A stretch of 64,000 bases of DNA, taken from contig NZ_FQVJ01000016.1 in NCBI RefSeq assembly GCF_900129125.1, positions 1 to 64,000 on the forward strand, in the 5' to 3' direction. The notes beneath the pieces are model-generated. The model was not told where the DNA came from. It did not search any database and saw only the letters and a list, made by a program, of their open reading frames with translations. This document shows, piece by piece, positions 10,515 to 32,774 of this stretch. The DNA is from Acidocella aminolytica 101 = DSM 11237 (GTDB taxonomy: Bacteria; Pseudomonadota; Alphaproteobacteria; Acetobacterales; Acetobacteraceae). Position numbers and translations under genes: made by a program. Numbering within the stretch: position 1 is the stretch's first letter; every line of letters starts with the position of its first letter.

Positions 10515-10536
10515 CGATGGGTAAGGTGTTGCTGGT

Positions 10537-14927: not shown

Positions 14928-15599
14928 TTAATCCAGCCGCACCACCACGCCAGTCGCGGTGACCTGGGCAGAAAAACGCCGCCCGCTGCTATGGTTGGTC
15001 AGGAGAATGGTGTCGCCTACATGGCCAGGCTGATCCGCTACCGCATCCAGCGACAGCTCAACCCCGCCGCTGTAAACATGCACAGTCACGAGTTGCCCGG
15101 CTTTTACCACCAGGGGGGATTGTACGTCGTTTTGGGTGATGATCATGCCGGTGCCGAGCGACATTAGCGCGCTGGCGCCTTCAATTTGTGTTGGGTTGCT
15201 GAAAACCTGCCGCCCGGCGAAGGACTGGACCGGTAGCTGTTTAACCATGAGGTCCGCGGCGGTGATGGTTTGTCCAGCATTAACGGGCTTGGCCGCCACC
15301 ACTACTGCTTCGCTTTGTGCCAAGGTGACGGTGACATAAAGAGTCCATTGCGGTGAGGTGCATTGCGCAGCGGCTTGTTCATAAGGCGCTGTGCCGCTGA
15401 GTGTGACGGTGAGTGGCACCGTGCAAGCGGGCATGTATGCCGCCCCCTTCACGGGCCCGAGACTCACGCTGGCTCCAGGCGGCGCTAGATTTTGCGCCGC
15501 CTGTTGCACCGCCTTGGCCACAGCCTGCGGGTCTTGCTTGGTTTGGGCCTGGGCGGCCAAAGGCCAGCAGACCAGCATGATGAAGGCCAGGAAGCGCAT
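14928..15599 (-). CDS. flgA: Flagellar basal-body P-ring formation chaperone FlgA
   Basis: The likely start is the ATG at 15599, giving about 223 residues with a signal peptide (RFLAFIMLVCWPLAAQAQ). The C-terminal SAF-like domain carries AAKPVNAGQTITAADL, GMIITQNDVQSPLVVKAGQ and a final TATGVVVRLD, typical of FlgA. FlgA is a periplasmic chaperone that assists FlgI polymerisation into the P ring. It is the last gene of the long minus-strand flagellar operon, 4 bp after the sulfotransferase/glycosyltransferase gene, and it converges with rsmA. Confidence 0.88.
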   Translation of the reverse strand: MRFLAFIMLVCWPLAAQAQTKQDPQAVAKAVQQAAQNLAPPGASVSLGPVKGAAYMPACTVPLTVTLSGTAPYEQAAAQCTSPQWTLYVTVTLAQSEAVVVAAKPVNAGQTITAADLMVKQLPVQSFAGRQVFSNPTQIEGASALMSLGTGMIITQNDVQSPLVVKAGQLVTVHVYSGGVELSLDAVADQPGHVGDTILLTNHSSGRRFSAQVTATGVVVRLD

Positions 15600-15603
15600 G
15601 GTG

Positions 15604-18600
15604 TTATTCCGCCGCGCTGGCCAGCGTGAGGCTGGTGGACTGGTCGACATTAGCCCACGCGGGCGGTTCATCTTCAAGGCTGGGCAGAGCCAAGGCCGCG
15701 GCGCGGGTCTGAGCGCCTTGCCGCAAGGTTTCCTTTAGATTTTGCACGGCGTTTTGTACGGCTTTGCTCCAATTTTGCTTGATGTTTGGCAGGCGCAGTG
15801 CTCCCAGGCTTTCCGGTATGTCCAGCCTTTTGTCCACAATAAGGCGGCATCCGGCGGCGGCTGCGAGCAAGGCGTGGTAATGGTCTATATGTGTGTCGGC
15901 GCCCATTGGACGTAGCATGATCTGCGGGCCAACCTGTGACAGCACATGCAACCAGGATTGTTCGGTTTCCGGCGGGGTAATGCGTCCCACAGCTTCGGGA
16001 TATTGTACGCCAGGCCGTTCCACAATCATCCAAGCTGCGATGTCCAGTGTCTCTTTCATCAGTTCAGGGAACCAAGGTGGTGAGATGCCTTCATCGATCC
16101 AGAGAATACGGGGTTTGGTGTTGAGCCCCTTACCGGATTCGAAATCCTGCCAATAGCGGTTAGACAATGCGGGTCGCCAGAGCGATACGGAAGCTTTTGT
16201 TAGATTACTCAGATTGCTCACAAGGCCGGGGGAGGTCGCGAATATGCGCTCAGCAGCGGCCAGGGCCGGTAAGGCGTCGGGTTCTGGGATTGCGGTATAT
16301 AGGGCGGTATAAGGCAGGCTGTGGTTATGGGACGGGAGTAGAGGATTGACCCTCACCCAGCTTTCCGGAGCGCGGCGGCCCAACTCGGCAGCTCCCGGCA
16401 GCCCTTGCACCCAGTCTGCCTCCAGCAAACCAGCGTGGCGTAGCGCCCGCACTGCGTTAAGGGGCGCGCCTGATTGGGCAGGATCACCGCTTAAAAGCAA
16501 GCTGGACGGATCAGTCGGGATGGCGCGGACAAGGCCGGTGCGGCGTTCGGGGGCCAGTAGGTCACCATGCAGGGACAAAGCAGGGTGATGGTACGGATCT
16601 GCCCACGACAAAGCCTGTGCCGCAGGAGAGCCGTTACGGAAACTGCTCTCGGTATCCGCCATCGGTACCGTATTGGGCGGCATGACGAGGCTGACATCTG
16701 GAGTCCAGACCAATCTAGACCCTTGGGCACGAAGCTGAGCGCTTAAATCAATCCAGAGGGCATCGCCGTTCAAATCGGGGTCGAAGTTACAGGCTGAAAG
16801 TGCTGCGCGGCGGGCGATTAGGCCGGGAGGGCTGATAGCGCTGGCTTCTTGGTCCACCATCAACCAGCCGCCGGGGCCAGGGTCCAGGGGGCCGTGGCCA
16901 GCGCCCAATCGTGTATCTGCGCCGATTATGAGAGGGCCCATCACCTGTCCCTGCTGCCCATCTGCGCTCGTCTGGACGATTGTTCGTGCGGCTACGGCTG
17001 CGACGCGGGAGTCTGCGAGCCGGGCACGCAGTATTTCCTGCCAATGGGGCGAAATCTCTTGCATGCGCGCATCCAGGATAACGACAAGCTGTGTTTCCGA
17101 GAGGGCGACGGCCTTTGCAAGGGCAGAGCTCGTGGTGAGGGCTGAGACGGCCAGAACCTTCCCTTCCAACGCCTCGCGCTGATCTGAAACTGCATCGAAA
17201 TAATTCTGCATGGGGCCGCAAAGGTCTGCGCCAGCGAGAATGACGGGACCAGAGAGCGGCTTGCCGGTGAACAAGGCAGTCATCCACTTATCCAGCAGAG
17301 GAATGTCCGCGCCATCGCATAGCATGATAAGCGTGGTGCCCGGGTCTTCCGTCAGTCGGACATGATGGAACAGGCCAGGATATTGGCGGTTCTGTACTTC
17401 GGCCTTCATGCCACAATTGGCCAGGTGCTGCTTCAGTGCCTCAGCCGCACGCGCACAGAAGAGCTGCTGAGAGATATCGTCACGTTTGCTTCCAGCGCTG
17501 CGCGTAAAGATAGCCTCTGGCAGCCTCTCGACCTTTGCGCCCTGTGCGGCAAAGCGGAGTTGCATATCATATTCTTCTGCGCCGGCCATTGCGGCGTTAA
17601 AGCCGCCTGCTACCCGAATAGCCCGAGTGCTGTACCAGACCCAGTCTCCGATATAGGCGGATTGGCGCAATCGGGTGATATCCCAGCCGGGCTTGTGTCG
17701 GATCCATGCTCCATTTGTTCCCGGCACGATTTCGTCTGAATAGAGCATATCCGCGTTGGTCTGCGCGGCCAGCATTGCGAGGCGCAGGCAGCCATCCGGG
17801 GCGATGGTGTCGCCAGCGTTTATGATCGCGACATAATCAGCTTCCTCAGTACATAGATTGGCTTCTTCGCAGAGGTGGCGGGTCATCGCCTCTGGTTCAG
17901 CCGGAACAGTAATGGTCTCGAATCCTTCAACGGCCAGCGGATCGGCGGAGAGAATTTTGACGATGTTGGGTGCATTCCATTGACCACGCAGGCTCTCCAG
18001 AGTGTCATTCACTGCCGGGGCGCGACCGCTGGGAGCGGCGATTAGTACAGCAAGGCGCGGTAGGGCACCTGTTGTTTCGCGCAATTTCATCAGCCTGGTT
18101 TTGGCGCTATCATCAGTACGTTCCACTGGACGTATTGAGGCCGTGGATTGATTGGGCAACGCCGCAGTCTGCAAGGCTTCGCCGTTGAATCCAGGCAGAG
18201 CACGCCCGCGACTGGCGCTGATTTCGCTGAGAAAACCAACCAGATCTTCTGTCTCTGCGGCTAGGCCGTCCCATAAATCTGGTTGGAAGTCACGGGCGAG
18301 GATAGCCTCCCACGTACGGGTAACAAGATCGTGTAGCGGGCGAGTGAGGCCCTCGCGAGGAAAAGGTTCAGCACGGTTCAGTTGACCGGTGAGATAGCTG
18401 CTTGCTTGTGCGAGCCCATCACCATTCTTCTTTTGAAAGGTCAAGCCTAGCGATGACTCGATTAGACGCAGCTCTTGTGTAGGTTGGGCGAGTAGGTCGT
18501 GGTAAGTCAGCCAGCAACGCGGCAAATGTCGGGCAAGGCGTTCCGCATCTGTGGTGTAGCTCATCCACAAAAGCAGCGCATGTGCACGGGTGAGACCGTT

Positions 18601-19038
18601 TTTACGACCTTGGCTGGCAGCTGAAACCCATGGCTCACGAAAAATGTGTACTACGTGTGGCTTGTGACCAGCTTGGCGTGCGGCGCGTTCATAAAGCGGT
18701 AACGTACGGCAGAGATGGGGATGCTTTAAGCCCCAGAGCCTGTCTTGGGGTGTGAAACGCTGACGCAGAATTTCTTCAAGTCGGGATAGAAAGGGTGCCG
18801 TATCGGGACGTTCTGACCAGCCTTTCGGAAGGCCACGTACATCTGTCCAGTCTACTGAAAGATGGTTGAAGAGATTCACATCTAGTTCGATTAGTTCAGG
18901 AATCTCGTAGAACCCCAGGGGATTATGCTCATTGGGGTCGGCTTCGTTGTAAAATTTTACGCCTGCGCGCTGTAGCGCGCCAGATAGCGCTGAGGTACCG
19001 CTGCGGTAATAACCGACAATGAAGATAGCGTCCGTCAT
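15604..19038 (-). CDS. Sulfotransferase-glycosyltransferase fusion in the flagellar operon
   Basis: This 1144-residue multidomain protein starts with a sulfotransferase module (about 1-260). It has the PAPS 5'-phosphosulfate loop YRSGTS (11-16), a 3'-phosphate segment REPWVSAASQ (134-143) and TYHDLL (178-183). A GT2-type module follows (about 320-560) with DYVAIINAGDT and LYSDE. A second GT2-like module (about 580-800) shows LVVILDARMQEISPHW and LGAGHG. The C-terminal part ends with a GT-B-like AAAAGCRLIVDKRLDIPESL. No signal peptide or membrane helix is evident, so it should act in the cytoplasm. It sits between flgL (13 bp) and flgA (4 bp), pointing to modification of a flagellar component. 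The substrate is unknown, and the domain limits are by eye. Confidence 0.75.
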   Translation of the reverse strand: MTDAIFIVGYYRSGTSALSGALQRAGVKFYNEADPNEHNPLGFYEIPELIELDVNLFNHLSVDWTDVRGLPKGWSERPDTAPFLSRLEEILRQRFTPQDRLWGLKHPHLCRTLPLYERAARQAGHKPHVVHIFREPWVSAASQGRKNGLTRAHALLLWMSYTTDAERLARHLPRCWLTYHDLLAQPTQELRLIESSLGLTFQKKNGDGLAQASSYLTGQLNRAEPFPREGLTRPLHDLVTRTWEAILARDFQPDLWDGLAAETEDLVGFLSEISASRGRALPGFNGEALQTAALPNQSTASIRPVERTDDSAKTRLMKLRETTGALPRLAVLIAAPSGRAPAVNDTLESLRGQWNAPNIVKILSADPLAVEGFETITVPAEPEAMTRHLCEEANLCTEEADYVAIINAGDTIAPDGCLRLAMLAAQTNADMLYSDEIVPGTNGAWIRHKPGWDITRLRQSAYIGDWVWYSTRAIRVAGGFNAAMAGAEEYDMQLRFAAQGAKVERLPEAIFTRSAGSKRDDISQQLFCARAAEALKQHLANCGMKAEVQNRQYPGLFHHVRLTEDPGTTLIMLCDGADIPLLDKWMTALFTGKPLSGPVILAGADLCGPMQNYFDAVSDQREALEGKVLAVSALTTSSALAKAVALSETQLVVILDARMQEISPHWQEILRARLADSRVAAVAARTIVQTSADGQQGQVMGPLIIGADTRLGAGHGPLDPGPGGWLMVDQEASAISPPGLIARRAALSACNFDPDLNGDALWIDLSAQLRAQGSRLVWTPDVSLVMPPNTVPMADTESSFRNGSPAAQALSWADPYHHPALSLHGDLLAPERRTGLVRAIPTDPSSLLLSGDPAQSGAPLNAVRALRHAGLLEADWVQGLPGAAELGRRAPESWVRVNPLLPSHNHSLPYTALYTAIPEPDALPALAAAERIFATSPGLVSNLSNLTKASVSLWRPALSNRYWQDFESGKGLNTKPRILWIDEGISPPWFPELMKETLDIAAWMIVERPGVQYPEAVGRITPPETEQSWLHVLSQVGPQIMLRPMGADTHIDHYHALLAAAAGCRLIVDKRLDIPESLGALRLPNIKQNWSKAVQNAVQNLKETLRQGAQTRAAALALPSLEDEPPAWANVDQSTSLTLASAAE

Positions 19039-19050
19039 AGCAAGTCTTTC

Positions 19051-20268
19051 TTAAAGATATTGAAAAAGGCTTAGACCTTGCGCGGTACTGAAAGCCTTCA
19101 TCGCCGCTTGGACGGCGGTCATCGTTTGGTCGAGAGCCGTAATCGCGGTAGGCATGTCTACGGCAATGGCTTGGTTTACCGTTGTTTGTACGGCGGTCTT
19201 TTGCGACGTGTTACCTGTGGTAGCAGTTGAAAGTGCCTGCAGAGTCACGCCATTCTGCGCCTGAGCGGTCGTCACAGCTTGCTGATACTGCGCAAGACCG
19301 GCGAGGCTCTGGTTCAGAACTTGATTGGTCTTCGCGGTTTGTGCCGGCGTTGCATTGGTGTCGCCCAATGCGGTGGAGATTTGTTTGAGTAAGGAAAAGA
19401 CTGATTGTGGGCGGGACGGAGCAATGGTGAAACTGTCCCCATTAGCCGGGGAACCGGTGATGTCATAATTGACACCCGCCAGTTGCACACTTGTCTGGTT
19501 TGTACCGTTACTGTTCAACGTGCCAGTTGAGATGGTGCTCCCGCCTTGTGATGCTGTATAGGTGGTGGTCGTGCCAGATACGGCGAAGCTCACAGTGATT
19601 GGCGAATTTCCATGCTGGAAAGCATTGGCAGTATTGGCGTTGACTAGCCCTTGCTGAATGATTTCTCCGGAGCCGGTATTGCTGCTATTGGCGGTTACGG
19701 AAGTTGTGCCGTCTCCGGATAAGGCTGAGGTAAATACCTCTCCCGTGACCAACGTATTGGCGGTTTCGCCAGGGCTAATACTGGCCTGTCCCTGCCCCGC
19801 ATCGCCGAAATAAGCGATGTTGCCGTTGGAATCGATCTGAAACGGTGCCAGCGTACCGCGCGAGCCGCCAAATAGATAGCTCCCATTCGGTGCAACCGTG
19901 TTGCCTATGGATAGCAGCTGCTGCGAGGCGCTTTGCACTTGTGTCGCCAGCGCGTTACGGTTTTGCGAACTGGTGGTGCCGTTGAGCGCCTGTACTACAA
20001 TGGACTGAACATTATCCAGCAGCGAAGTCACGGAGCTGTAGGCATCATTAGCAGCGCCAAGTTGGGTTTGAATTGCGGCCTGGGTGGTGGTGTCGTTGGT
20101 CAGCTGGCTAATCTGGTCATTTCCAAGGGCAGCGGTTTCGTAAGCGGCTGGGTTTTGACTAGCGTTTTGCACTTTCATCCCAGTGGAGATCTGTTGCTGA
20201 AGCGTGTTTATCTGCGCTTCCTGCGCGGCCAAGCTGGTGCTGAAGTTGTTGTAGAATGACAGGTCCAT
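19051..20268 (-). CDS. flgL: Flagellar hook-filament junction protein FlgL
   Basis: This 405-residue flagellin-like protein has the conserved N-terminal D0/D1 helices (LAAQEAQINTLQQQISTG, then QNASQNPAAYETA) and NGSYLFGGSRG, the FlgL signature region. The C-terminal helix region (TTVNQAIAVDMPTAITAL) completes the coiled coil. FlgL (HAP3) forms the junction between FlgK and the filament and is exported through the flagellar type III gate. It follows fliJ by 20 bp in the operon. Confidence 0.9.
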   Translation of the reverse strand: MDLSFYNNFSTSLAAQEAQINTLQQQISTGMKVQNASQNPAAYETAALGNDQISQLTNDTTTQAAIQTQLGAANDAYSSVTSLLDNVQSIVVQALNGTTSSQNRNALATQVQSASQQLLSIGNTVAPNGSYLFGGSRGTLAPFQIDSNGNIAYFGDAGQGQASISPGETANTLVTGEVFTSALSGDGTTSVTANSSNTGSGEIIQQGLVNANTANAFQHGNSPITVSFAVSGTTTTYTASQGGSTISTGTLNSNGTNQTSVQLAGVNYDITGSPANGDSFTIAPSRPQSVFSLLKQISTALGDTNATPAQTAKTNQVLNQSLAGLAQYQQAVTTAQAQNGVTLQALSTATTGNTSQKTAVQTTVNQAIAVDMPTAITALDQTMTAVQAAMKAFSTAQGLSLFQYL

Positions 20269-20288
20269 TTTTGGGAATCCTTTGGCCT

Positions 20289-20714
20289 TCAGGAAAGAGT
20301 TTCGGTAATTTTTATATGTTGACGATTGCGCTCCGCACGGCTTTGCGCCTCGATAGCTTCTTGCCGTAGGGACGCCTTGAGGCGCTCTTGTAAAGCCTGG
20401 CGGTGGGCGCGTAGCTCCGCTAAGGCGGCAGCACAGGCATTACGTTTGGCTTCCTCTACAGCAATGGTCTCCGCGAGCTGGCCGCTGGCATTTTGTGCCT
20501 GTGTGGTGAAGCGCCCAGCGCGCTGGGCCTCGGCTGCTTGTACGATGTCCCCTGTTTGCCAGCCCGCTGCCAGCCTAGTCTGATATCCGGCCAGAACGTC
20601 GCGCTGTGCTGCGTAACGTTGCAAGTTGAAGGTGTGTTGGCTCAAAGCGTCCAGCAAGGAAGCTTCCTTGGCTGCAGCGAGAAGTTCCAGCTTGGCTAGT
20701 GCTTGCGGCTTCAT
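20289..20714 (-). CDS. fliJ: Flagellar export protein FliJ
   Basis: This 141-residue protein is predicted to be almost wholly coiled coil, with long Ala/Gln/Glu/Arg heptads (for example ETIAVEEAKRNACAAALAEL). Size and position directly after fliI with a 4-bp overlap identify it as FliJ, the stalk-like partner that fits into the FliI hexamer and contacts FlhA. The assignment relies on context more than on sequence, because FliJ proteins diverge strongly. Confidence 0.82.
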   Translation of the reverse strand: MKPQALAKLELLAAAKEASLLDALSQHTFNLQRYAAQRDVLAGYQTRLAAGWQTGDIVQAAEAQRAGRFTTQAQNASGQLAETIAVEEAKRNACAAALAELRAHRQALQERLKASLRQEAIEAQSRAERNRQHIKITETLS

Positions 20715-22048
20715 GGTTCATCCCCAAAAACAGAGCGCAGTCTGATTAGAGCTTCATCCAGCCCTATCCGCACTTCGGCATCTTGGCGCAGCAGCGCTTC
20801 CATTGCGGATTGACGATGCAATGCTTCGTCCAGAATGGGATCGCGCCCAGGTGCGTAGGCGCCAAGATCAATGATGTCGCGCTTCTCCTGTTTGCGTGCC
20901 CAGAGAGAGCGGAATCGCTGGGAGAGGTGCAAATGCTCTTTTGCCACCAGGTTCGGCATGGGACGTGAGAGCGAAGCGCAAATATCAATGGGAGGGTAGA
21001 TTGTAGCCTCTGCCATGGCGCGGGAGAGGACGATATGTCCATCCAGGATTGCACGAGCGGTATCCGCTACCGGGTCGCTTACATGGTCGTCGCCTTCGAC
21101 CAACACGGTATGGATGGCCGTGATGGAACCTTGTCCTGGCCCGCCATTGCCGGCACGTTCCGCGTAAGCCGAAAGCGCGCCGAACACAGAAGGGGGATAG
21201 CCCTTGCTGGCGGGGGGCTCCCCAGCCGCTAACCCAATTTCGCGCAGCGCCATAGCGAGCCTGGTAAGGCTGTCCACCAGCAGAAGCACATGCTTACCTT
21301 GGGCGCGGAAGGACTCTGCAATAGCGGCGGCACGGTAGGCGCCATGAACCCGTGCCAGGGGCGTATCATCCGCGGGAGAGGCCACCACCACCACACGTGA
21401 CAGGGTTTCACCCAGATGATCCTCGATAAATTCCCGAATTTCCCGTCCACGTTCACCGATCATCGCCAGTACCACTACGTCTGCGCGGGAATGGCGGGCG
21501 AGCATGCCAAGTAGCGTGGTCTTACCCACGCCCGAACCGGCGAACAGTCCTACCCGCATTCCGCGTCCGAATGTGGTGAGGGCGTTAATGGCGGTCACTC
21601 CGACGTCAAAAGGCGTGTCGATTCGGGCGCGTTCCATGGGATTAATGGGATTGCCTAGCATCGGCCAGGGTATTGTGGCTTCGGGCACGGGACCGCCGTC
21701 CAGTGCTTTGCCCCGAGCATCCAGTACTCGTCCAAGCAGAGACGGGCCGGTCAGCACTGCCATTTCTGTTGTTTCCACCCGTACCCGCGCGCCACGCATG
21801 ATCCCGCGCGTCCCTTGCTCAGGCATTAGAAGCAGGCTTTCGGCCTCGAACCCGATAATCTCTGCGGCGGCTTCGCCACCTTCCTGTTCTACCAAGCAGC
21901 GTGCGCCTATGGGTGCGTGCAGACCACTGACCCTCAGCTTCTCTCCATTTGCCCATAGCACGCGCCCGTACCGGTGCACTGGTGCTTCTGCCAGAGCTGC
22001 GCGCAGATGTGTCTCGGCTTTGGATTTGATGTTGTCTAGAGAGATCAT
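20711..22048 (-). CDS. fliI: Flagellum-specific ATPase FliI
   Basis: This 445-residue homologue of F1-beta has Walker A AGSGVGKTT at 170-178, MIGERGREIREFIEDHLG, Walker B HVLLLVDSLTRLAMALREIG, and the substrate-facing GSITAIHTVLVEGDD. FliI energises substrate delivery to the type III export gate together with FliH and FliJ. It overlaps fliH and fliJ by 4 bp on either side, so the three are translationally coupled. Confidence 0.97.
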   Translation of the reverse strand: MISLDNIKSKAETHLRAALAEAPVHRYGRVLWANGEKLRVSGLHAPIGARCLVEQEGGEAAAEIIGFEAESLLLMPEQGTRGIMRGARVRVETTEMAVLTGPSLLGRVLDARGKALDGGPVPEATIPWPMLGNPINPMERARIDTPFDVGVTAINALTTFGRGMRVGLFAGSGVGKTTLLGMLARHSRADVVVLAMIGERGREIREFIEDHLGETLSRVVVVASPADDTPLARVHGAYRAAAIAESFRAQGKHVLLLVDSLTRLAMALREIGLAAGEPPASKGYPPSVFGALSAYAERAGNGGPGQGSITAIHTVLVEGDDHVSDPVADTARAILDGHIVLSRAMAEATIYPPIDICASLSRPMPNLVAKEHLHLSQRFRSLWARKQEKRDIIDLGAYAPGRDPILDEALHRQSAMEALLRQDAEVRIGLDEALIRLRSVFGDEP

Positions 22049-22701
22049 TCCGCCTCCTTCTTAGGCAAGCTCAAAGCCGCGCGTATTGCCTCAAGGCGGC
22101 TTTCTAACCGGGCGTCCCATTCGGCTTTCTCCAGTGGATCGCCGCCATGAGCTTGCAGTTCCACCAATGCACCTCCTGGGGTAATGCTGTCATCAGCCAC
22201 CAGCTTTGCGCTTGTTGTAGGAAGCTTCTCCTGTACAATCTGTAAATCAGTTGGATGTAGACGGATCTGTAATGTTTGTCGGTTGGATTGGTCTGCTGCC
22301 GCGTCCCGTAGCAGCTTGGTAACCAAGCCCGCCAATTCGGTACGTGCTTGCCCGCTTTCTCCACCTGCGATATGGCAGGCAAGCTGAAAAGCCATGTCCA
22401 GCACCAGTTCCGCCAGCGCTTGCTCTTTTTCCGCTAGAGGAGCGGATAGCTGATTGATTGCTTGGCTTAGCGCGGCAATGGCCTGCGTTAATTTCTCCTC
22501 CTTCGGCACCATGACGGCACGGGCTGCTGCTTCACCTGCTTCTTTAGCTTCAGCAATGGTATTTTCTTTTAACTTAGCAACCTCTTGTTTCACCCGCCGT
22601 TGAATTTCGGCTTCCTGCGCAGCGATCTCGGCGGCTTCCTTCGCCAGGACCGTCTGTACAAATTCTTTATTACGCTGGCGTGAAACAGTTACAAAGCTCA
22701 T
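22045..22701 (-). CDS. fliH: Flagellar assembly protein FliH
   Basis: This 218-residue protein has a long charged coiled coil (AAEIAAQEAEIQRRVKQEVA) followed by a more globular half with LVLDMAFQLACHIAGGE and IRLHPTDLQIVQE, the FliH/YscL pattern. The segment GGALVELQAHGGDPLEKAEWDARLE near the end is also typical. FliH regulates FliI and links it to the C-ring. It overlaps orf90 upstream and fliI downstream by 4 bp each. Confidence 0.88.
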   Translation of the reverse strand: MSFVTVSRQRNKEFVQTVLAKEAAEIAAQEAEIQRRVKQEVAKLKENTIAEAKEAGEAAARAVMVPKEEKLTQAIAALSQAINQLSAPLAEKEQALAELVLDMAFQLACHIAGGESGQARTELAGLVTKLLRDAAADQSNRQTLQIRLHPTDLQIVQEKLPTTSAKLVADDSITPGGALVELQAHGGDPLEKAEWDARLESRLEAIRAALSLPKKEAE

Positions 22702-22970
22702 GGCTCAGCATCGCCATGGCTATGCAGGCGGCTTTTTCCAGTAATAATCTGGAACATCTCGCCACACAATTTAACGACGGGAGAAAGCACGGCTAATGTG
22801 GCACGCACCAATAGCCCCACTGCCAATGCCTCCAATAGCCAGGCTCCCGCTATGGCAGGGTTTGTGAAGTTGGCAGGCTCATGCACGGCGGCCCAACCGG
22901 TTAAGGCCGCAAGACTAACTAGAAAGGGGCTGAAGATTTTCTTTTGTTTGCCGGATTTTGCCTTGGCCAT
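22698..22970 (-). CDS. Small membrane protein between motB and fliH, unknown
   Basis: This 90-residue protein has a basic start (AKAKSGKQKKIFSP), two likely transmembrane segments (around 14-32 and 42-66) and a hydrophilic tail ending in HSHGDAEP. I do not recognise it as any standard flagellar protein. It starts 5 bp after motB and overlaps fliH by 4 bp, so it is clearly made together with stator and export-apparatus proteins. A role in stator assembly or in positioning the export ATPase complex is possible, but this is only inferred from context. Confidence 0.75.
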   Translation of the reverse strand: MAKAKSGKQKKIFSPFLVSLAALTGWAAVHEPANFTNPAIAGAWLLEALAVGLLVRATLAVLSPVVKLCGEMFQIITGKSRLHSHGDAEP

Positions 22971-22975
22971 GGTTA

Positions 22976-23788
22976 TTAGTCCTTGGAATTATTCTGTTCT
23001 TTGTTTGAGGGTGGTGCTTGAACCACCACCACTACCCGCCGATTTTGGGCGCGCCCAGTGTCGGTGCTGTTGTCGGCGATCGGTGCGTATTCGCCAAACC
23101 CTTCGGCAGCGAGATTCTCACCAGGGACGCCTGTCTGCATAAAAAGTTGTACAACAGCAACGGCCCGTTCTGCAGAAAGAGACCAGTTAGATGGGAATTC
23201 TGGTGTCGAAATAGGCTGATTGTCTGTGTAGCCCCGGACTACGACATGGAAGCCAGGTGGCAATTGCGTTAGTCCCTTTCCAACTTGCGTAAGTAGCTTT
23301 GCCGCATCAGGCTTTAGAGTTGCTTCGCCTGAGGCGAACAATACTGAAGCATCAAGTTGAATGCTGAGGGTCAGTGGTGCGTTGTTGATTGTGACTTGAT
23401 GCTTGTCGATCATTGGCTGGAACATGGATTTCAGCTTCAAGGAAAGAGCTTGGAGATTTTTCATCTCTTGATGTAGCTGTTTCTCCATCTTCGCTGGAAT
23501 TTTTGCAGGAGCCGGTGGCTTGGGGATCGGTGAGCTGTGGTGCTGCAGTACGCCGTGCGAGCCGGATGGCGTAGGAACGAGAATTGCAGGAGGGGCGCCA
23601 TGAAACGCCTCGATGAAGGCTTTGGCAATTTCCTCCTGCTTGTATTTGTTGCGGGTTGAGGACGCATAAAGCACAACGAACGTCGCAAGCAGCAAGGTCA
23701 GAAGGTCAGCGTAGGAAATAACCCAGCGCTCGTGATTTAGATGGGCCTGATGCTTTTTCTTTTTGCCATGATGCGGAAACTTAGCCAT
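22976..23788 (-). CDS. motB: Flagellar motor stator protein MotB
   Basis: This 270-residue protein has a basic cytoplasmic start, one transmembrane helix with the proton-binding Asp in SYADLLTLLLATFVVLY, a plug/linker region and a C-terminal OmpA-like peptidoglycan-binding domain (VVRGYTDNQPI, NWSLSAERAVAVVQLF, GRAQNRRVVVVV). It anchors the stator to the cell wall. It follows motA by 3 bp. The unusually Lys/His-rich N-terminus (HHGKKKKHQAHLNHERW) is notable. Confidence 0.95.
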   Translation of the reverse strand: MAKFPHHGKKKKHQAHLNHERWVISYADLLTLLLATFVVLYASSTRNKYKQEEIAKAFIEAFHGAPPAILVPTPSGSHGVLQHHSSPIPKPPAPAKIPAKMEKQLHQEMKNLQALSLKLKSMFQPMIDKHQVTINNAPLTLSIQLDASVLFASGEATLKPDAAKLLTQVGKGLTQLPPGFHVVVRGYTDNQPISTPEFPSNWSLSAERAVAVVQLFMQTGVPGENLAAEGFGEYAPIADNSTDTGRAQNRRVVVVVQAPPSNKEQNNSKD

Positions 23789-23791
23789 GGT

Positions 23792-24595
23792 TTATGCTGC
23801 CTGCGAGGCGCCGTTGGGTACTGTATCGTCTTCATCTTCAGGATTTTTTGCCTTGGGCTCGTCGTGTAGATAGTTCTTCAGCGTCTGGCGGATTATGATG
23901 CCAGGCTTGCCTTCAGCCAATAATATGAAGCCCTGAATTACGACCATCCTTTCGCGCTCCAGGTCCTTGGCGATGGATTTCAGACGTGCGCCAAGGGGAA
24001 GAGCTATGAGATTGGCAAAGCCAACGCCATAAATCGTCGCGATAAAGGCCGTAGCGATGCCTTCCCCCAACTCACTAGGATGATCAAGACGCATCATCAC
24101 ATGGATCAGTCCGAGCACTGCACCCATCACCCCGATGGTAGGAGAATAGCCGCCGACAGCTTCCCAGACATGGGCAGGCTGTTCCTGCTCGTTGTCGATC
24201 TGCTCGGCGGCGATGTTCAGCATGGCCGCGAAATCGTCTGGAGGAGTGTTATCCACGATCATCTGTAGACCCTGGCGTTGAAAGGCATCTTCCACGTCTG
24301 GAATTTCCTGTTCCAACACCAGCGTACCGGCACTACGCGCCTTGGCGGACCAATCAGCCACTTGGTCGATGAACGCGGCAAGATCCAGCTTCGGCGGCTT
24401 TGCCAGCCACATTACGGCCTTGAGAGCTTTGACGATCTTACGAAATCCGAATTGCAGCAGGCACGCAGAAAATGACCCGCACATCACAATGATGAAGGCG
24501 GTGAGATTAAGCAGAGAGGAGAGCGGCACATGATCCGTTACCGCCCCGCCTACAATGACAAGAATCCCGAGGAACAGCGTAGCCAGGTTAATCAA
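23792..24595 (-). CDS. motA: Flagellar motor stator protein MotA
   Basis: This 267-residue MotA/PomA-type protein has four hydrophobic segments. It shows VWEAVGGYSPTIGVMGAVLGL at the conserved proline-containing third helix and ATAFIATIYGVGFANLIALPLG in the fourth. The cytoplasmic loop carries charged residues for rotor contact. It starts with TTG in a TTGA overlap with the fliA stop, with GAGGAG about 10 nt upstream. It forms the ion-conducting stator with MotB. Ion specificity (H+ or Na+) cannot be fixed by eye. Confidence 0.92.
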   Translation of the reverse strand: MINLATLFLGILVIVGGAVTDHVPLSSLLNLTAFIIVMCGSFSACLLQFGFRKIVKALKAVMWLAKPPKLDLAAFIDQVADWSAKARSAGTLVLEQEIPDVEDAFQRQGLQMIVDNTPPDDFAAMLNIAAEQIDNEQEQPAHVWEAVGGYSPTIGVMGAVLGLIHVMMRLDHPSELGEGIATAFIATIYGVGFANLIALPLGARLKSIAKDLERERMVVIQGFILLAEGKPGIIIRQTLKNYLHDEPKAKNPEDEDDTVPNGASQAA

Positions 24596-25155
24596 GACAC
24601 AAACTCTCCTCGTTGCGAAGCGGTAATATGGATGGCAAGTGCCTCCAGGGCACGCTTACGCAGCCGTGAGGCATAACCTTCGCTGATATCCAACACGTTC
24701 GCGATTTCCCGATTATTAAGTTCGTCATAAAAATGCAGAGCCAGAACCCGGTATTCGAGCGGAGGCAACGTTCGCAGTGCGTCTGCCAGGAGGCTGCGGT
24801 CATCAAGCCGCGACAGGAGTGATAGCGGGTCCGCCGGACCGGTGCCGTCGCTTTGGGTGGCATTTTCCACCGCCTCTGTGTCAAATAAGATTTCGCCACG
24901 TCGGCGAGAGCCTTCCCGTCTCAGGCCGTCAATCATTGCGCCGCGTATGCGCCTTGTGGCGAATGCCTGGAAGGTCACGCCCTGGCTGGGGTCGAAGCGC
25001 TGCGTTGCTTCCATCATACCCACGGCCCCCCATTGCAGCAGCTCATCAAACTCTGCCCATGGCATGCGCACTTTCAGAAGCAGGGCCATGCGTTTGATCC
25101 AGTTTCCATAAAGCGCGGTCAGGGCCGCGTTGTCGGGGGGCACGGCGTCAGCCAT
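24592..25155 (-). CDS. fliA: RNA polymerase sigma-28 factor FliA
   Basis: I place the start at the ATG at 25155, giving 187 residues beginning MADAVPPDNAAL; the frame is open further upstream but overlaps flhA. Regions 2 and 4 of a sigma-70-family factor are visible: EFDELLQWGAVGMMEATQRF, GVTFQAFATRRIRGAMIDGL, and the helix-turn-helix ELNNREIANVLDISEGYASR. FliA directs transcription of late flagellar and chemotaxis genes. The start overlaps the end of flhA by 8 bp. No anti-sigma flgM was seen in the window. Confidence 0.92.
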   Translation of the reverse strand: MADAVPPDNAALTALYGNWIKRMALLLKVRMPWAEFDELLQWGAVGMMEATQRFDPSQGVTFQAFATRRIRGAMIDGLRREGSRRRGEILFDTEAVENATQSDGTGPADPLSLLSRLDDRSLLADALRTLPPLEYRVLALHFYDELNNREIANVLDISEGYASRLRKRALEALAIHITASQRGEFVS

Positions 25156-27241
25156 TGGCGGGAACCGGGTCAGACGCCTGCACCACTTGCAGCGGCGTGG
25201 TTTCCGGGATTTCCTCAAGTGCGATTACCTGGATCACCCCTTGCACGCATTTTGCTACGGCACGGCGCATCGCGGCTTGTACGACGAGCACGGGCTTCAT
25301 ACCGCGGGCGCGCATCGTTTTAGCAGCGTGATCCGCAGCCTGGCGTAGGTGCGTGGCGGCTTCGGCTTCGATTTCAGCGGGTGCACCTTCGCGATTGGAA
25401 CGTAGGGATTTGCCGACTAGCTCCTCTAGCTTCGGTGGAAGGACCGCCACGCGTAGCCCAGGCTCAGATCCTGTGAACTGACTGACGATGAAGCGCCCCA
25501 GCCTAAGCCTTACGGCAACCAACAGTTTTTCTGGGTCTTTCAGACCGCCGTCAGCAGCTTCGACCAACGCCTCGGCAATACGTTCAAAATCACGCACCGG
25601 AACTTCTTCGGCCAGCAGGCCCTGGCATACCTGTCGGATCACGCCGGCGGACAGGCTTGCGCGCAAATCCTCCGCGAGGCGAGGCGTGGTTTCCGCCAGC
25701 CGGGTCAAGAGCCCTTCTACCTGTGGACGTCCAAGCAGCTCGGCGCCGTGGCGTTTAAGAACCTCAGCAAAATGGGTGGCAATCGCGGTAGCAGCGTCCA
25801 CAACGGTATAGCCAAGCTCTTCCGCGGCCGGGATAGTTCCCTGAGGAATCCAGACAGCGTTCTGTCCAAAGGCGGGGTCTTTGACCGGGCGGCCGATGGT
25901 AAGCTTATCCACTACCATCGGCCCTTCAATGGCGAGCCATTGTCCAGGCCAAGCTTCGCCGCCTTCAATAGCAGCGCCGCGTAGCATGAACCGGTAACCG
26001 TGGGCCGGGAGGTCTGAGGAATCACGAATGTGCACTGCGGGCACCAGAAATCCCATCGCGCGTCCGTAACGTTGACGCACCGCGGTCATGCGCCCCAGCA
26101 GCCGTCCTTCGCCGGGGCCGACCATCGGCGCCAGGGCAAATCCGATATTCATACCTAGCGGGTCTACGCCGCTTACATCAGTGAGGGTGTCGGCTTTTAC
26201 CTCTGGTTTTACGCCCTCAGCCTCGCCTTGTTGCTGCGCCTTGGCCTGTTCTTGCTCCGGATTCGCACGGGAGAGCCGCCATGCCGCCACGCCGAGCGCA
26301 CCACCCAACATTAGGAAGGGGATATGCGCCATCTCCGGTACTAGCCCGATGGCTACGGTGATTGCTGCCGCAATGGCCAGCGCCTGAGGGTATTTGGAAA
26401 GCTGAGATTTAATTTGCGCGCCGATATCTTCACCGGTGGCAACACGCGTCACCACCAAGCCAGCTGCCACTGAAATGGTAAGTGAGGGAATTTGTGCTGC
26501 TAGCCCATCGCCTACGGTCAGTAGCGTGTAGGTGCGCGCGGCATCACTAAGCGGCAGCCCATATTGAAGTGTTCCGATAATCAAGCCGCCAAGCATGTTG
26601 ACGACCAGAATGACCATCGCTGCCACCACGTCGCCGCGCACGAATTTTGAGGCGCCGTCCATTGCGCCGAAGAAATCCGCTTCGCGTCGTAGCCCGTCAC
26701 GCCGCCGCTCTGCTGCTTGGGGAGAGAGGATGCCCGCATTGATCTCGGCATCAATCGCCATTTGCCGCCCAGGTAGGCTATCCAGCATGAAGCGCGCGGA
26801 GACTTCGGCCACGCGCGAGGCGCCTTTAGTAACGACAACGAAATTTATGACGATAAGAATGATGAAGATGATGCCGCCGACAACATAATTGCCGCCAACC
26901 GCGAATTGGCCGAACGCTTCAATCACATGCCCGGCTGCCCCCGGCCCGGAATAGCCGTTCAGCAGAATGGCCCGCGCGGTAGCCACGTTCAGCGCCAGAC
27001 GCATCAGCGTGGTGGCCAGCAGTACAGATGGGAACGAGGAGAATTCCGCCGGGGAGGGTATATAGAGTGATGCGCCCAGAATCACGAGTCCAGCGGAGAT
27101 GTTCAGCGCGAACAGAAAAGAGATCGCAGGTGGCGGTAGCGGCACGGCCAACATCACCAGCACCAGCAGAATCACCACCGGGCCGGAAAGTTGGGTCAGG
27201 CTGAAACCGCGGGGGCGGGTGAGGGCGAGTGCGTCAGCCAT
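25148..27241 (-). CDS. flhA: Flagellar export gate protein FlhA
   Basis: This 697-residue protein has eight N-terminal membrane segments, the FHIPEP signature RFMLDSLPGRQMAIDAEIN, and the charged loop AERRRDGLRREADFFGAMDG. The large C-terminal cytoplasmic domain (from about residue 350) binds chaperone-substrate complexes. FlhA is the main export-gate component that uses the proton motive force. It starts inside the end of the neighbouring fliQ copy (8-bp overlap) and ends inside fliA. Confidence 0.97.
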   Translation of the reverse strand: MADALALTRPRGFSLTQLSGPVVILLVLVMLAVPLPPPAISFLFALNISAGLVILGASLYIPSPAEFSSFPSVLLATTLMRLALNVATARAILLNGYSGPGAAGHVIEAFGQFAVGGNYVVGGIIFIILIVINFVVVTKGASRVAEVSARFMLDSLPGRQMAIDAEINAGILSPQAAERRRDGLRREADFFGAMDGASKFVRGDVVAAMVILVVNMLGGLIIGTLQYGLPLSDAARTYTLLTVGDGLAAQIPSLTISVAAGLVVTRVATGEDIGAQIKSQLSKYPQALAIAAAITVAIGLVPEMAHIPFLMLGGALGVAAWRLSRANPEQEQAKAQQQGEAEGVKPEVKADTLTDVSGVDPLGMNIGFALAPMVGPGEGRLLGRMTAVRQRYGRAMGFLVPAVHIRDSSDLPAHGYRFMLRGAAIEGGEAWPGQWLAIEGPMVVDKLTIGRPVKDPAFGQNAVWIPQGTIPAAEELGYTVVDAATAIATHFAEVLKRHGAELLGRPQVEGLLTRLAETTPRLAEDLRASLSAGVIRQVCQGLLAEEVPVRDFERIAEALVEAADGGLKDPEKLLVAVRLRLGRFIVSQFTGSEPGLRVAVLPPKLEELVGKSLRSNREGAPAEIEAEAATHLRQAADHAAKTMRARGMKPVLVVQAAMRRAVAKCVQGVIQVIALEEIPETTPLQVVQASDPVPANG

Positions 27242-27497
27242 GCAATAATCCCGGAATGGCGTTGAATAGCCTGGTGGCGTAATGTTCCACCCCGCCCATC
27301 ATCAGTGAGCCTGCTGCGGTGGTAAGCACAGCCAGCCCGCCTAGCTTGAGCACGAAGGGAATCGAAGATTCCCGCACCTGTGTGGCGGTTTGCAAAATGC
27401 CCGCCGCAAGGCCGATCACCAGCATGGCCAGCAGCGCCGGTCCCGCGAGTTCCGCGAAAGCTAACCAGGCGCCGCTATTCACGCCATTCGGCGTCAT
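27234..27497 (-). CDS. fliQ: FliQ-like export gate protein (copy 1, beside flhA)
   Basis: This 87-residue protein has two transmembrane helices and the FliQ core LAAGILQTATQVRESSIPFVLKL, close in pattern to E. coli FliQ. FliQ packs around the FliP/FliR core of the export gate. A second, more divergent FliQ is encoded at 44863-45141 in the fliOPQR cluster. This copy overlaps fliMN by 4 bp and flhA by 8 bp, so it belongs to the operon. Which copy is used, or whether both are, cannot be told. Confidence 0.88.
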   Translation of the reverse strand: MTPNGVNSGAWLAFAELAGPALLAMLVIGLAAGILQTATQVRESSIPFVLKLGGLAVLTTAAGSLMMGGVEHYATRLFNAIPGLLHG

Positions 27498-27865
27498 GGC
27501 GTTTCGTCTTCCGATTGCCGGGCCGCGTCCTCGGTGAGGGCGGTGACGCGCACGCCGTAACGGTCATTGGCCACGGCCACCACTTCGCCATAAGCCAGCT
27601 TCTGACCGTTGGCGAAGATGGCTAGCGGCTCACCGATCATCTGGTCGAGTTGCAGGATCTGCCCGTGCCGCAGGGCGCGCAGTTCCTTCACGGTGATTTG
27701 TGTGCGCCCCAGTTCCACCGCCACGGCCACTTGTACCCGGTCCAGCACGGCCTTGGCGGTGATCGCGGTGGCGCCGCGCGGCTGGTTTTGCAGGCGTTCA
27801 AGTTCCACGCGTTCGGGTTCGATGAGCTTTTCCGCCCCTGTGATGCGGTCTTTCTGCTCGGGCAT
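27494..27865 (-). other. Possible internally initiated FliN isoform
   Basis: In frame within the fliMN gene, codon 300 is ATG (27865-27863), preceded by AAGGAG with an 8-nt spacer (27879-27874), a near-ideal Shine-Dalgarno. Initiation here would give a 123-residue protein, the size of a stand-alone FliN, starting in the linker just before the FliN-like SpoA domain. Known precedent: SpaO and YscQ in type III secretion make such short C-terminal products from internal starts. That it is used here is inference. Confidence 0.5.
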
Positions 27866-28754
27866 GTTGTCGTCTCCTTCTTCTGTCGTTGGGGCGCTGA
27901 CTTGGCAGCACACATGGCCGTCGCGCTGGCCGTAATCGGCCAGGAACAAATCCACTCCGCCCGCGACCGCCACGGCGTGAGGCCAGAGATGGAAGGGCAG
28001 CACATCGCCAGGCCGCAGCGCCTGGAACACGGCCAGCGGCAAATCCGCCCGGGCTAGTTCAAAGCTCAGCTCCACCTTAGTGCTGTCGGTCAGCATTTCG
28101 ACGCCACTGGTCCAGTTCTCATCCGGTCCGCGCCCACCCAGCAGACCGGACTGGTTAGCGATTTTCGCTTCCAGCGTCTCAAAGGCGGAGTAGGGGACGA
28201 TAACGCGGATAGTGCCCGAGCCCAGCTCCGTCTCGAAAATACCAGTGACGGCGATCATCCAGTCCTGGCCATCGGCGATAGCGAGCATCCCGGTGGCGTT
28301 TTCGTAAGCGATGGCTTGTAATTCCAGCGGCACGATGGGCGTGAAGGTTTCGCTTACCGTGGCGAAGGCGAGATCCACTATCTGTTTGCCCACGCGTGTT
28401 TCCAGCGCGGACAACTCATAGCGTTCGAACGGGTGCGCGCTGGTGGCGCCGCACATCGCGTCGACCATCGCTCCGATGAGATCGCCGTCGATGGCCAGCA
28501 ACATACGCCCACGCAGCGGGGTGAGTTCGGAAATGCCCGCCAGCATGACCTCCGGCAAAGCGGACATAGCGGATTCATGGGTAATGACGTTCTGGATGCA
28601 GGAGAGCAACTGCACGGAATGACGCATACGCTGAAAGAGAACGAAGGCGATCTGCCTCATGAACCGGTCAGCCAGAGTCTCCATGAGGATCGAGCGCAGC
28701 AAAGGCGCGCGCATCGGGTCCAGAAGGTCGAGCAGTTCCACATCTTGGGAGTCG

Positions 28755-28762
<8 letters not shown>
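27494..28762 (-). CDS. FliM-FliN fusion, flagellar C-ring switch protein
   Basis: This 422-residue protein joins a FliM-like part (about 25-290, with a CheC-like middle domain and a first SpoA domain near 220-290) to a FliN-like SpoA domain at about 338-410 (AVLDRVQVAVAVELGRTQI, LRHGQILQLDQMIGEPLAIF, YGEVVAV). The acidic linker around residues 291-335 contains Met300. No separate fliN was seen in the window. The N-terminus lacks an obvious EIDALL-type CheY-binding motif, showing DDSQDVELLDLLDP instead. C-ring proteins set rotation direction and dock the export ATPase. The gene overlaps fliK by 8 bp and fliQ by 4 bp. Confidence 0.88.
27874..27879 (-). promoter_or_regulatory. Internal Shine-Dalgarno before the FliN part of fliMN
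   Basis: AAGGAG on the minus strand lies 8 nt before an in-frame ATG (Met300). It encodes part of the acidic linker, so the purine run could be partly due to Glu/Asp codons; this weakens but does not remove the signal. Confidence 0.45.
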
Positions 28763-30196
<1,434 letters not shown>

Positions 30197-30197
<1 letters not shown>

Positions 30198-31222
30198 CAA
30201 ACCATCTCCTCGGTAGCGTTGATGGTAATGCGGCCTTCGGCGGCCAAGCGCAGCGCCGCGTCCACAATTTCGCCTTGTGCGCCGAGGGCGTCGGAGCGCC
30301 GGATTGGCGGTCCGCTGGTCAGCTCCTCCTTCAGCACTTCCACCTGGCGGGCGGAGAGATTCTGGAAGAAACGATCGCGCAGTTCGGTGTCCACCAGGCG
30401 TAGGGCCGGGGCCAGCTTGTCTTGCGGCACCTCGCGCAGCAGAAGTTGTAGCGAGCGGTCGGGCAGCCTGCCGAGGTCGATAAAGGTGAACAGGTTTTCG
30501 CGGATTTTCTCGGCGGTCTTGGAGTCTCGTTCCTCGATGGCGCCCAGCACATTGTCAGACATCGCGGAGGGGAAATGGTTGAGAATATCCGCCGTCTGCT
30601 TGGCGCCCCCCAGATTGGTGACGCGCCGTCCGCCAGTGCCGGTTTGCATCGCCAGCTCATCCAGCATGTCGCGCAGCTCCTTCACCACGCTGGGGGACAC
30701 AACGTCCAGGTTCGAGAAGCGGTAAAGCGCTTCCGCCGCCAGCGGCTCTGGTAGATAGGTCAGCAGATTGGCGCCCATCTCATGCGGAATATGCGCCAGC
30801 AGCAGCGCAATGGTTTGCGGCCGCTCATGGGCCATCTGCATTGCCAGAGTACGAGCGTCGGTATTGGGCGGCAGTTGGAAAATTGAGCGCCTCTCATTCC
30901 GCCGCAACCGGTCGAGAATCTCTTTGGCCTGCGTTTCGCCCAGTGCGTTCATCAGCACCCGGCTGAGAAATTTCATGCTATCTCCGCCAATGGCGGTGAT
31001 GCCGAGATCCGCCGCGAAGGAGACCATGATATCTTCGCGCTGCTGCGCATTCACGCCTTTGAGGTTCGACATCGCCACGGAGATGCGGCTGACTGAGAGA
31101 TCATCCATCTCCCGCAGCACGGCGGCGGCGGTTTCCTCGCCTAGCTCGCGCAGAACCATGGCCGCACGCTCAGGTCCAGAGAGTGGGGCAGGGGCGGGTA
31201 ATTGCTTGGTATCTTCACTCAT
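30197..31222 (-). CDS. fliG: Flagellar motor switch protein FliG
   Basis: The start chosen is the ATG at 31222, overlapping the fliF stop by 8 bp and giving 341 residues; the frame is open 27 codons further upstream, inside fliF. FliG features are present: GPERAAMVLRELGEETAAAV, the middle EHPQT-like HERPQTIALLLAHI, and the C-terminal torque helix region LFTFIDLGRLPDRSLQLLLRE with alternating charges. FliG couples the stator to the rotor and sits on the MS ring. Confidence 0.95.
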
Positions 31223-32774
31223 TTTCTTCAGCCCAGCTTTGCAGGAGTCTTGCGACACCAGGGATGTTCTCGGCCGCTTGGTCACGAAGTTCTGTGAAAT
31301 CACGGGGCGGAATCACCACCGGCAGCGGCCGTTGCGGTGGTGGTGGTGGTGGCAGCATGTTCCTAAGGCTCAGATTAGCCAGCCGTCGCCCGGCTGGCAG
31401 TGCCAACCCGAACAGCAGCGCGATTGCCGCCAACACTTCCAGCAGCGCATGTGCCAGCGGGTTTGCCGCCGCGATAATCGGTGCCGCAGCCATGACTGTT
31501 GCCGGTTTCTGGAACGGCGTGGAGAGCACATTCACCTTCACGTCTGGATAAGCAAAGGCCGCGCCGATGGCGGTTTTAATCTGGTCGATCTGCACGCCCT
31601 TGGGCAGGGCGGCCTGGTTCAGGACAACTGAGATCGCAAGGGATTTTACAGACCAGTCAGGTTTGGTGATGTCGCTTTGTGTTTCATCGGTCACAAAATT
31701 CTGGTCGAGATTATCTGTTTTGCGGGTGGGACCTTGCTGGCTGTCCGTTGCCTTGGCTGGCGTCTGGGGTTGGCCGCCTTTGGCTGGCGCCTGGGTCTGG
31801 CCGGTTTTGGATGCCGTTTTGGCGGCCGGAGCAGTTGTGGTGTTTCCAGGTGGCTCGTTGGAGAGCGCACCGGGAATCCCCAAGGCCGCCCCATTACTGC
31901 CAATCTGCGTCGTTTGGTCATGGCTCGAATGTTGAACCATCTGGTTCGGGCCGTAGGTTGTCTCTTGAATATGGGTCTGGGTAAAATCCAGATTAGCAGA
32001 GACATCGGTTCGGAAATTCCCAGCGCCGATCATCGGAATCAGTAGTCCGGCCACGCGCGCCGCGGCACCGGCCTCAATCTGTGCTACGGTGGCGAATTGC
32101 GTGCCGGTATTCATCGTCCCGGGGGAGGGGTAAACGGTTTGGCCTGCCGTGGTGACCACGGTGACGTTCTGCGCCGAGAGGCCCGGCACTGCACCCGCAA
32201 CTAGTTTGGCAATGCCTTCAGCCTGCGCGGCGGCCTGCATTTGGTCGGCATCCAGCACCACTGAGGCGGCGGGTTTGGGCTGGTCCGCTAAAAATGGAGT
32301 TTCCGGTGGCAGGGCTAGAAATACTTGCGCGCTGCGGATGCCCGCCATGGCCTGAATCGAGTGCTGCAAGGAGAGTTCCAGCGCCTGCGTGGCCATAGTG
32401 GACTGGGCTAGATCCGAGGCGGTCATCGGCGCGTTTTCAAGCTGATTCCATGCGTTTTGCGTGGAGGAGCCTGGTACCTGCGCGGCCCCAAGCTGCAACC
32501 GTGCCTGGGCGAGTTGCGGGGCGGGCACCAGAATCACATTGCCCGCTGCCTGTAACTGGTACGGAATGCCGAGCTTTTGGAGTTGGGCGATCACCTTACC
32601 GCCATCGGCCGGTGTAAGCCCTTCATCCAGCACGGCATAAGGTGGACCGGACATCTCCAGCCACAGCACAGCACCCAGGGAGACAGCGACTACCCCCCCG
32701 GCCACCCAGAGCAGCTTGGGAACTTTTCCCGCCCATCCGCGCAGCTTTGTTAGAATGTCCTGCCAGTTAGGCAT
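31215..32774 (-). CDS. fliF: Flagellar MS-ring protein FliF
   Basis: This 519-residue protein has an N-terminal transmembrane helix (LLWVAGGVVAVSLGAVLWL), periplasmic ring-building motifs (LDEGLTPADGGKVIAQL; ELSLQHSIQAMAGIRSAQVF), a low-complexity periplasmic insert and a second transmembrane helix (LLEVLAAIALLFGLALP). The C-terminal FliG-binding tail contains LRDQAAENIPGVARLLQSW. FliF forms the MS ring, the platform for rotor and export gate. It starts 3 bp after fliE. Confidence 0.95.
   Translation of the reverse strand: MPNWQDILTKLRGWAGKVPKLLWVAGGVVAVSLGAVLWLEMSGPPYAVLDEGLTPADGGKVIAQLQKLGIPYQLQAAGNVILVPAPQLAQARLQLGAAQVPGSSTQNAWNQLENAPMTASDLAQSTMATQALELSLQHSIQAMAGIRSAQVFLALPPETPFLADQPKPAASVVLDADQMQAAAQAEGIAKLVAGAVPGLSAQNVTVVTTAGQTVYPSPGTMNTGTQFATVAQIEAGAAARVAGLLIPMIGAGNFRTDVSANLDFTQTHIQETTYGPNQMVQHSSHDQTTQIGSNGAALGIPGALSNEPPGNTTTAPAAKTASKTGQTQAPAKGGQPQTPAKATDSQQGPTRKTDNLDQNFVTDETQSDITKPDWSVKSLAISVVLNQAALPKGVQIDQIKTAIGAAFAYPDVKVNVLSTPFQKPATVMAAAPIIAAANPLAHALLEVLAAIALLFGLALPAGRRLANLSLRNMLPPPPPPQRPLPVVIPPRDFTELRDQAAENIPGVARLLQSWAEENE

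Follow-up and report, generated by a model that had tools for sequence, protein, structure and literature searches.

The window analysed here, the first 64,000 nucleotides of contig NZ_FQVJ01000016.1 of Acidocella aminolytica 101 = DSM 11237, carries a run of flagellar genes on its minus strand. Among them, between flgL and flgA, lies one long open reading frame (ORF) whose product, P0001, joins a sulfotransferase domain of the type that uses 3'-phosphoadenosine 5'-phosphosulfate (PAPS) to modules with glycosyltransferase (GT) folds (Table 1). A preliminary description of this DNA had picked out the 1144-residue frame and both of its neighbours without giving the strand, and this much stands: the frame is open on the minus strand, the plus strand of the same interval has many stops, and the models for flgL and flgA score above their cut-offs. 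A gap of 12 bp separates P0001 from flgL, and one of 4 bp lies between its stop and the preferred flgA start, an ATG at 15599 that would open a signal-peptide-like sequence; an alternative, longer flgA ORF (TTG at 15677) would overlap P0001. Read from its far end, the run consists of fliF, fliG, fliK, fliM, fliQ-like, flhA, fliA-like, motC-like and motD-like genes, an ORF at 22698-22970, fliH, fliI, a 141-aa ORF at 20289-20714, flgL, P0001 and flgA, several of these names resting on best matches that score below NCBIfam cut-offs.

Table 1. Features of the P0001 locus (window coordinates) and related fusions of other alphaproteobacteria (coordinates of their own loci)
Feature	Coordinates	Strand	Basis
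Sulfotransferase / GT-like fusion P0001, 1144 aa	15604..19038	minus	ATG-start ORF; relatives in genus and other genera
N-terminal PAPS-type sulfotransferase domain, residues 1-275	18214..19038	minus	Fold and kept cofactor motifs
5'-phosphosulfate binding motif GYYRSGTSA, residues 9-17	18988..19014	minus	Aligns with SYPKSGT of solved sulfotransferase 5x2b
K105-HPH with invariant Lys, residues 105-108	18715..18726	minus	Aligns with WVLKNP of 2zq5 (weak local match)
3'-phosphate binding motif R134-x7-S142	18613..18639	minus	Invariant in alignments A1 and A3; aligns with solved sulfotransferase
GT-A module 1, residues about 326-562, NAGD at DxD position	17353..18063	minus	Fold and profile-profile comparison
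GT-A module 2, residues about 563-830, LDAR at DxD position	16549..17352	minus	Fold and profile-profile comparison
GT-B module, residues about 843-1132, second Glu of E-x7-E replaced	15643..16512	minus	Fold
flgL, hook-filament junction protein, directly upstream of P0001	19051..20268	minus	TIGR02550, 187 bits (cut-off 127.2)
flgA, P-ring chaperone, directly downstream of P0001	14928..15599	minus	TIGR03170, 108.3 (cut-off 54.65)
Remaining same-strand flagellar run	20289..32774	minus	Named by best family match
Sulfotransferase-GT2-GT2 fusion L132	8018-11359	plus	
Sulfotransferase-GT2-GT2 fusion L133	5762-9352	minus	
Sulfotransferase-GT2-GT2 fusion L134	5776-9324	minus	

A chance frame or a misassembly can be rejected, because relatives of P0001 occupy the same place in other loci, at 50-74% identity across the genus Acidocella (some of them cut by contig ends) and, in other genera, at 30-36% identity along most of the protein. 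A. aromatica and A. facilis are among the species that carry the gene. Alignment A1, on which most of what follows is based, has 35 rows: P0001 and the products of 34 of 38 loci. L030, L031 and L053 were omitted because they run into contig ends and L045 because of an in-frame stop; the partial L110 was retained. (In L045, at G002:C81:14378-17821, an in-frame TAA leaves 1018 aa that end within the GT-B module, through either sequencing error or true truncation.) PHROGs searched with P0001, and PDB sequences searched with P0001 and with A1, gave no match. Matches on plasmids number 55 records, none covering more than 80% of the query; of the best 15, 14 are to the sulfotransferase part and one is to the GT part.

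Residues 1-275 are, by fold and cofactor motifs, a PAPS-type sulfotransferase, and would be expected to transfer sulfate. The two sequences on which the preliminary description had founded this assignment, YRSGTS at residues 11-16 and REPWVSAASQ at residues 134-143, are present as it gave them, and the fold comparison bears the assignment out: the domain matches solved sulfotransferases, the tyrosylprotein sulfotransferases (TPSTs) being nearest. GYYRSGTSA or a close variant occurs in all 34 rows that reach this motif (two rows have RTGTS), and K105, R134 and S142 are invariant in alignments A1 and A3; the matches of these three residues to solved enzymes are weak and local. An adenosine 5'-phosphosulfate (APS) kinase is found at E < 1e-60 in 33 of the 38 genomes of the genus, that of the window among them, and PAPS can probably be made in these genomes.

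Beyond residue 275, fold comparison finds two GT-A folds and one GT-B fold. The two GT2-like modules and GT-B-like tail of the preliminary description are thus supported. Profile-profile comparison adds its support for residues 3-826, over which hhalign finds the family colinear (probability 100, E 1e-61) with an alignment of eight rows, made up of the sulfotransferase-GT2-GT2 fusions L132, L133, L134 and L123 and four GT proteins. The motifs tell a different story about activity. A DxD-type metal site defines GT2 enzymes, and E-x7-E defines GT4. D-x-D is present in 0/35 aligned sequences in either GT-A module, NAGD or AAGD and LDAR-like sequences standing in its place; in the profile alignment, canonical LLDHDD falls opposite IINAGD in module 1, and LNNDVEP opposite LDARMQEI in module 2. 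(As a script pattern, LLDHDDE is present in five of the eight comparison proteins.) The GT2 family PF00535 is matched by 10/35 members, with a best value of 0.017, as against 1.7e-28 to 7.8e-52 in L123, L132, L133 and L134. In the GT-B module, where the E-x7-E columns were placed by their spacing from G1063, the second Glu is L, M or I in 35/35 and the first position is Glu in 1/35; this is the weakest part of the motif argument. The further proposal of the preliminary description, that the same enzyme also glycosylates, is not supported, given these losses.

A simple dead-enzyme view of the GT modules is nevertheless disfavoured, because conservation in module 1 comes close to that in the sulfotransferase: 37 of its 237 positions are invariant, compared with 58 of 275, and the identity of P0001 to five distant rows is 0.38-0.43 in module 1 and 0.39-0.44 in the sulfotransferase, as against 0.21-0.30 in module 2 and the tail. 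Module 1 may therefore be a pocket that has been retained with altered chemistry or in a binding role. A conserved AAE tail at the C-terminus was considered as a protein signal and set aside, because in 27 of 33 relatives the end of the gene shares 4 nt with the start of flgA, so that the constraint there may be on the DNA.

The location in a flagellar operon, which the preliminary description had noted for this one genome, turns out to be one aspect of co-inheritance with a particular flagellar lineage. The gene is present in 31 of the 38 genomes of the genus (30/37 and G061; cut by contig ends in G025, G026, G030 and G036), and the same 31 have FliI at E < 1e-150; neither the gene nor that FliI was found in G005, G008, G016, G020, G027, G028 and G029, with completeness of 73-98%. 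Two genomes, G004 and G061, carry both FliI and the gene in duplicate. (Their loci, L111 and L113 in G004, L112 and L116 in G061, are two flagellar clusters per genome, each with its own copy of the fusion.) Across the family (397 genomes), that FliI is present in 20 genomes, every one of which carries the gene as well; in G420 (78% complete) the gene is present with no FliI among the matches listed, and in the other 175 family genomes, with FliI at 1e-103 to 1e-90, matches to the gene are partial or lacking. The family-wide gene search scored at most two candidates per genome, and these counts come from the per-genome rows and best-ranked places. Pairwise identities of FliI and of the gene vary together (r 0.744, 24 genomes, 0/2000 permutations as high), and in a tree of sulfotransferase domains those of the flagellar set group in a single clade (support 100/99), set off by a long stem, with several long outgroup branches uncertainly placed. 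Because of this co-variation and this single clade, stray horizontal gain of the gene is not favoured. At E up to 1e-150, FlhA of this lineage was found in one of 289 genomes of the class, the window's own, a strict threshold that is silent on other flagella.

Where the contig reaches, flgL adjoins the gene in 34/34 loci and flgA in 32/32 (neighbour counts cover 35 loci, L006 and L116 being one gene), and the flgL-gene-flgA placement recurs in three other genera: g78 has the Acidocella order, and g83 and g120 are ordered differently, with flgK before flgL and, in g83, fliF after flgA. The gap upstream of the gene is 9-39 nt in 33/33 rows (those of A1 other than P0001 and L110, with start codons chosen by script). 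Just past flgA comes fliC in 24 of the 35 loci, with fliD in 23 and fliS in 21; five loci end too early, and in six (L106-L110 and L113) fliC is not shown after flgA. The FliI of this lineage, rare as it is in the family, has FliI_clade1 as its best match, under the cut-off. FliA/FlgM, FliD/FliS, the MotC/MotD-like stators and FliI, in the window at 14928-32774 (minus) and at G000:C84:1198-4834 (minus) in the same genome, resemble the beta/gamma type.

The fusion itself is not exclusive to flagella. A class-wide search of 385 genomes with the 35-row profile found no further full-length copy; it did find sulfotransferase-GT fusions and a split pair in other alphaproteobacteria. L132, L133 and L134 (1113-1196 aa) are of the sulfotransferase-GT2-GT2 kind, L123 and L124 are further fusions, from the same family, and in L135 and L136 the two parts are adjacent genes; the sulfotransferase part is recognised by Pfam in some of these proteins only. 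L132, L133 and L134 are colinear with P0001 across residues 3-826, the GT-B tail of P0001 lying outside the aligned range. They differ from the P0001 type in keeping LLDHDD and a strong PF00535 match (5e-46 to 8e-52) and in their surroundings: the other 30 window queries gave no match within about 9 kb of these fusions at E 1e-3, and no flagellar genes of the window's kind are found there. L132 adjoins a Wzt-type ABC gene, L133 adjoins NeuB, asparagine synthase and a second sulfotransferase, and no hint of function came from the neighbours scanned around L134 and L135. Since related fusions lie outside flagellar loci, two of them beside polysaccharide-type genes, the flagellar gene may derive from an enzyme of surface-polysaccharide type that was taken over by this flagellum. 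A second sulfotransferase of the source genome (L114, 537 aa, at 9164-10777, minus, of G000:C86) has a 1020-aa GT-B protein and a GT2 gene close by, in what is probably a surface polysaccharide locus.

The reading that we prefer, and hold at about even confidence, is that P0001 works in the cytosol as a soluble PAPS-dependent sulfotransferase that serves a single flagellar lineage, with GT-derived modules that are no longer canonical glycosyltransferases. We infer its catalysis, its acceptor, its timing and the role of its GT modules as follows. The enzyme would be expressed as part of the flagellar operon (in most relatives the stop of its gene overlaps the start of flgA) and would sulfate an exported filament or junction subunit in the cytosol, before export. 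Flagellin would be the first candidate as acceptor and FlgL the second, both favoured because of the position of the gene. GT-A module 1 would probably keep a rebuilt pocket that holds the acceptor, be this a loop of a protein or a sugar bound to one, and module 2 with the GT-B tail would be a faster-evolving scaffold. Tentatively, and with more doubt than belief, we put forward a more specific proposal: a dedicated sulfotransferase, its retired GT domains serving as a platform for holding the substrate, would O-sulfate the filament or the hook-filament junction of a bacterial flagellum, either at a sugar bound there or directly at tyrosine. If true, it would amount to a bacterial flagellum with enzymatic sulfation and to GT modules turned adaptor. 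For an acidophile, it would make sense for the filament to carry a negative charge that persists in ionised form at low pH. The single gene offers one knock-out target for the question of sulfation, and a conserved fusion that has lost its GT catalytic motifs makes a tractable case of GT folds reused for binding.

A number of observations weigh against this reading. Both the substrate, a flagellar protein, and the group added to it, sulfate, belong to the inferred part of the reading; co-inheritance would fit any flagellum-related role, and the genome counts are not independent events, because the genomes are related. A search with hidden Markov models, a check that the preliminary description had proposed, gave a divided answer: Pfam names Sulfotransfer_3 alone in P0001, and below its cut-off (E 4e-4, 21.2 bits against 27; a further match, at 0.27, is at chance level), while 34 of the 35 aligned sequences match that family at E up to 1, best 1e-7. 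Carriers of the gene are found among the genomes with weak or no APS kinase: G010 and G019 have none (83% and 82% complete), G012 has a match at E 1e-4 (97% complete) and G026 has a fragment; G027, which also has a weak match, lacks the gene. Hydropathy gives no convincing membrane span, and the protein is likely to be soluble, likely rather than firmly so because three of nine sequences show one to three marginal windows over 1.6. In g83, g120 and one of the G004 clusters the gene has no fliC next to it, and in the source genome the flagellin-fliD-fliS-flgM run sits on another contig, C84, apart from P0001. A sugar as acceptor finds no echo in the 10 ORFs scanned at that flagellin cluster, which hold no sugar-pathway, sugar-activation or nonulosonate family.

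The remaining difficulties concern the GT modules, and some of them also speak for a bifunctional enzyme, in which these modules would assemble or initiate a glycan of flagellin or FlgL and the sulfotransferase would sulfate it. A missing DxD or E-x7-E does not prove inactivity, and the E-x7-E script pattern is absent from three comparison GT-B domains too (one of them can be seen on inspection to have the motif). Matches to Glyco_trans_2_3 persist in 13/35 members (best 1e-4), and module 1, conserved almost as well as the sulfotransferase, retains invariant D410, D435, E436, E488 and E489. K4 chondroitin polymerase and Pasteurella heparosan synthase 2 are active polymerases, and the tandem GT-A folds of P0001 resemble theirs (2z86 and 8vh7; Foldseek E 8.4e-14 and 9.7e-12), with a GT-B fold besides; the fit is one of single domains, the pair being set differently (whole-chain root-mean-square deviation 22-26 Å), and P0001 has lost DxD in both modules. 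With D-x-D gone from every aligned sequence, the second Glu of E-x7-E replaced throughout and PF00535 barely detectable by comparison with the related fusions, we regard a bifunctional enzyme as unlikely.

Less probable again is tyrosine sulfation with no glycan involved, the domain acting directly, as a TPST does, on flagellin, FlgL or another exported subunit. The nearest solved folds are of this class (TPST1 and TPST2, 5wri and 3ap2), at 13-15% identity to P0001, in animal enzymes that have no GT modules. Tyrosines of FlgL are kept at five places in 24-25 of 25 sequences; in flagellin only Y50 is kept, in 22/22 (the set being 22 of 23, with L006 dropped). A non-flagellar surface target, such as lipopolysaccharide or an outer polysaccharide, with the operon shared only for co-expression, would suit the company kept by L132 and L133 and is the least probable of these, the gene being absent from the seven genus genomes without that FliI, duplicated with FliI in two, and always between flgL and flgA where contigs reach.

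Flagellin glycosylation is common, and P0001 as preferred here, a dedicated sulfotransferase with non-canonical GT modules, is best compared with systems in which sulfate or a dedicated enzyme comes into play. The flagellin of type B Clostridioides difficile bears a sulfonated peptidylamido-glycan, the GTs being separate genes in contrast to the P0001 fusion, and the authors match no studied gene to a glycosulfotransferase (PMC5207246). Halobacterium Agl30 and Agl31 sulfate an N-glycan that also decorates archaellins, and deleting one of them cut motility slightly while deleting the other did not (PMC11980604); these are separate archaeal enzymes acting on an archaellum, and P0001 is a bacterial fusion. 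The reference list of that paper includes a 1985 paper entitled "Halobacterial flagellins are sulfated glycoproteins"; a 2019 paper reports that sulfation on archaellin glycans was not detected (PMC6591318). A flagellar-motor paper mentions sulfotransferases in excluding such proteins from a screen for tetratricopeptide repeats (PMC11870540). Maf-type glycosylation shares with P0001 the principle of a dedicated enzyme for modifying flagellin, and differs in that the flagellin cluster of the source genome, as already mentioned, has no nonulosonate genes among the 10 ORFs scanned. PF01973 (Maf) had no match in the source genome, in a search whose control matched only four archaea among 14 genomes, so that its sensitivity for bacterial Maf is not demonstrated. 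The preliminary description had held that a sulfated flagellar glycan made by such a fusion would be new. As already seen, the fusion is not unique; a sulfotransferase acting on bacterial flagella was not found among the papers listed in searches of open-licence literature (subscription papers being mostly outside its scope).

Some other ORFs of the window deserve mention. Those at 20289-20714 (minus) and 22698-22970 (minus), both in the flagellar run, have no Pfam match; the former sits between fliI and flgL, where, presumably, FliJ would be expected. At the cut-offs applied, a 453-aa ORF at 10537-11898 (minus) matches nothing in Pfam, NCBIfam or PHROGs. Beyond flgA and ksgA, at 12294-14093 (minus), lies a ClC chloride channel, its CBS match being below threshold, and it occupies the place where 24 of the 35 related loci have fliC.

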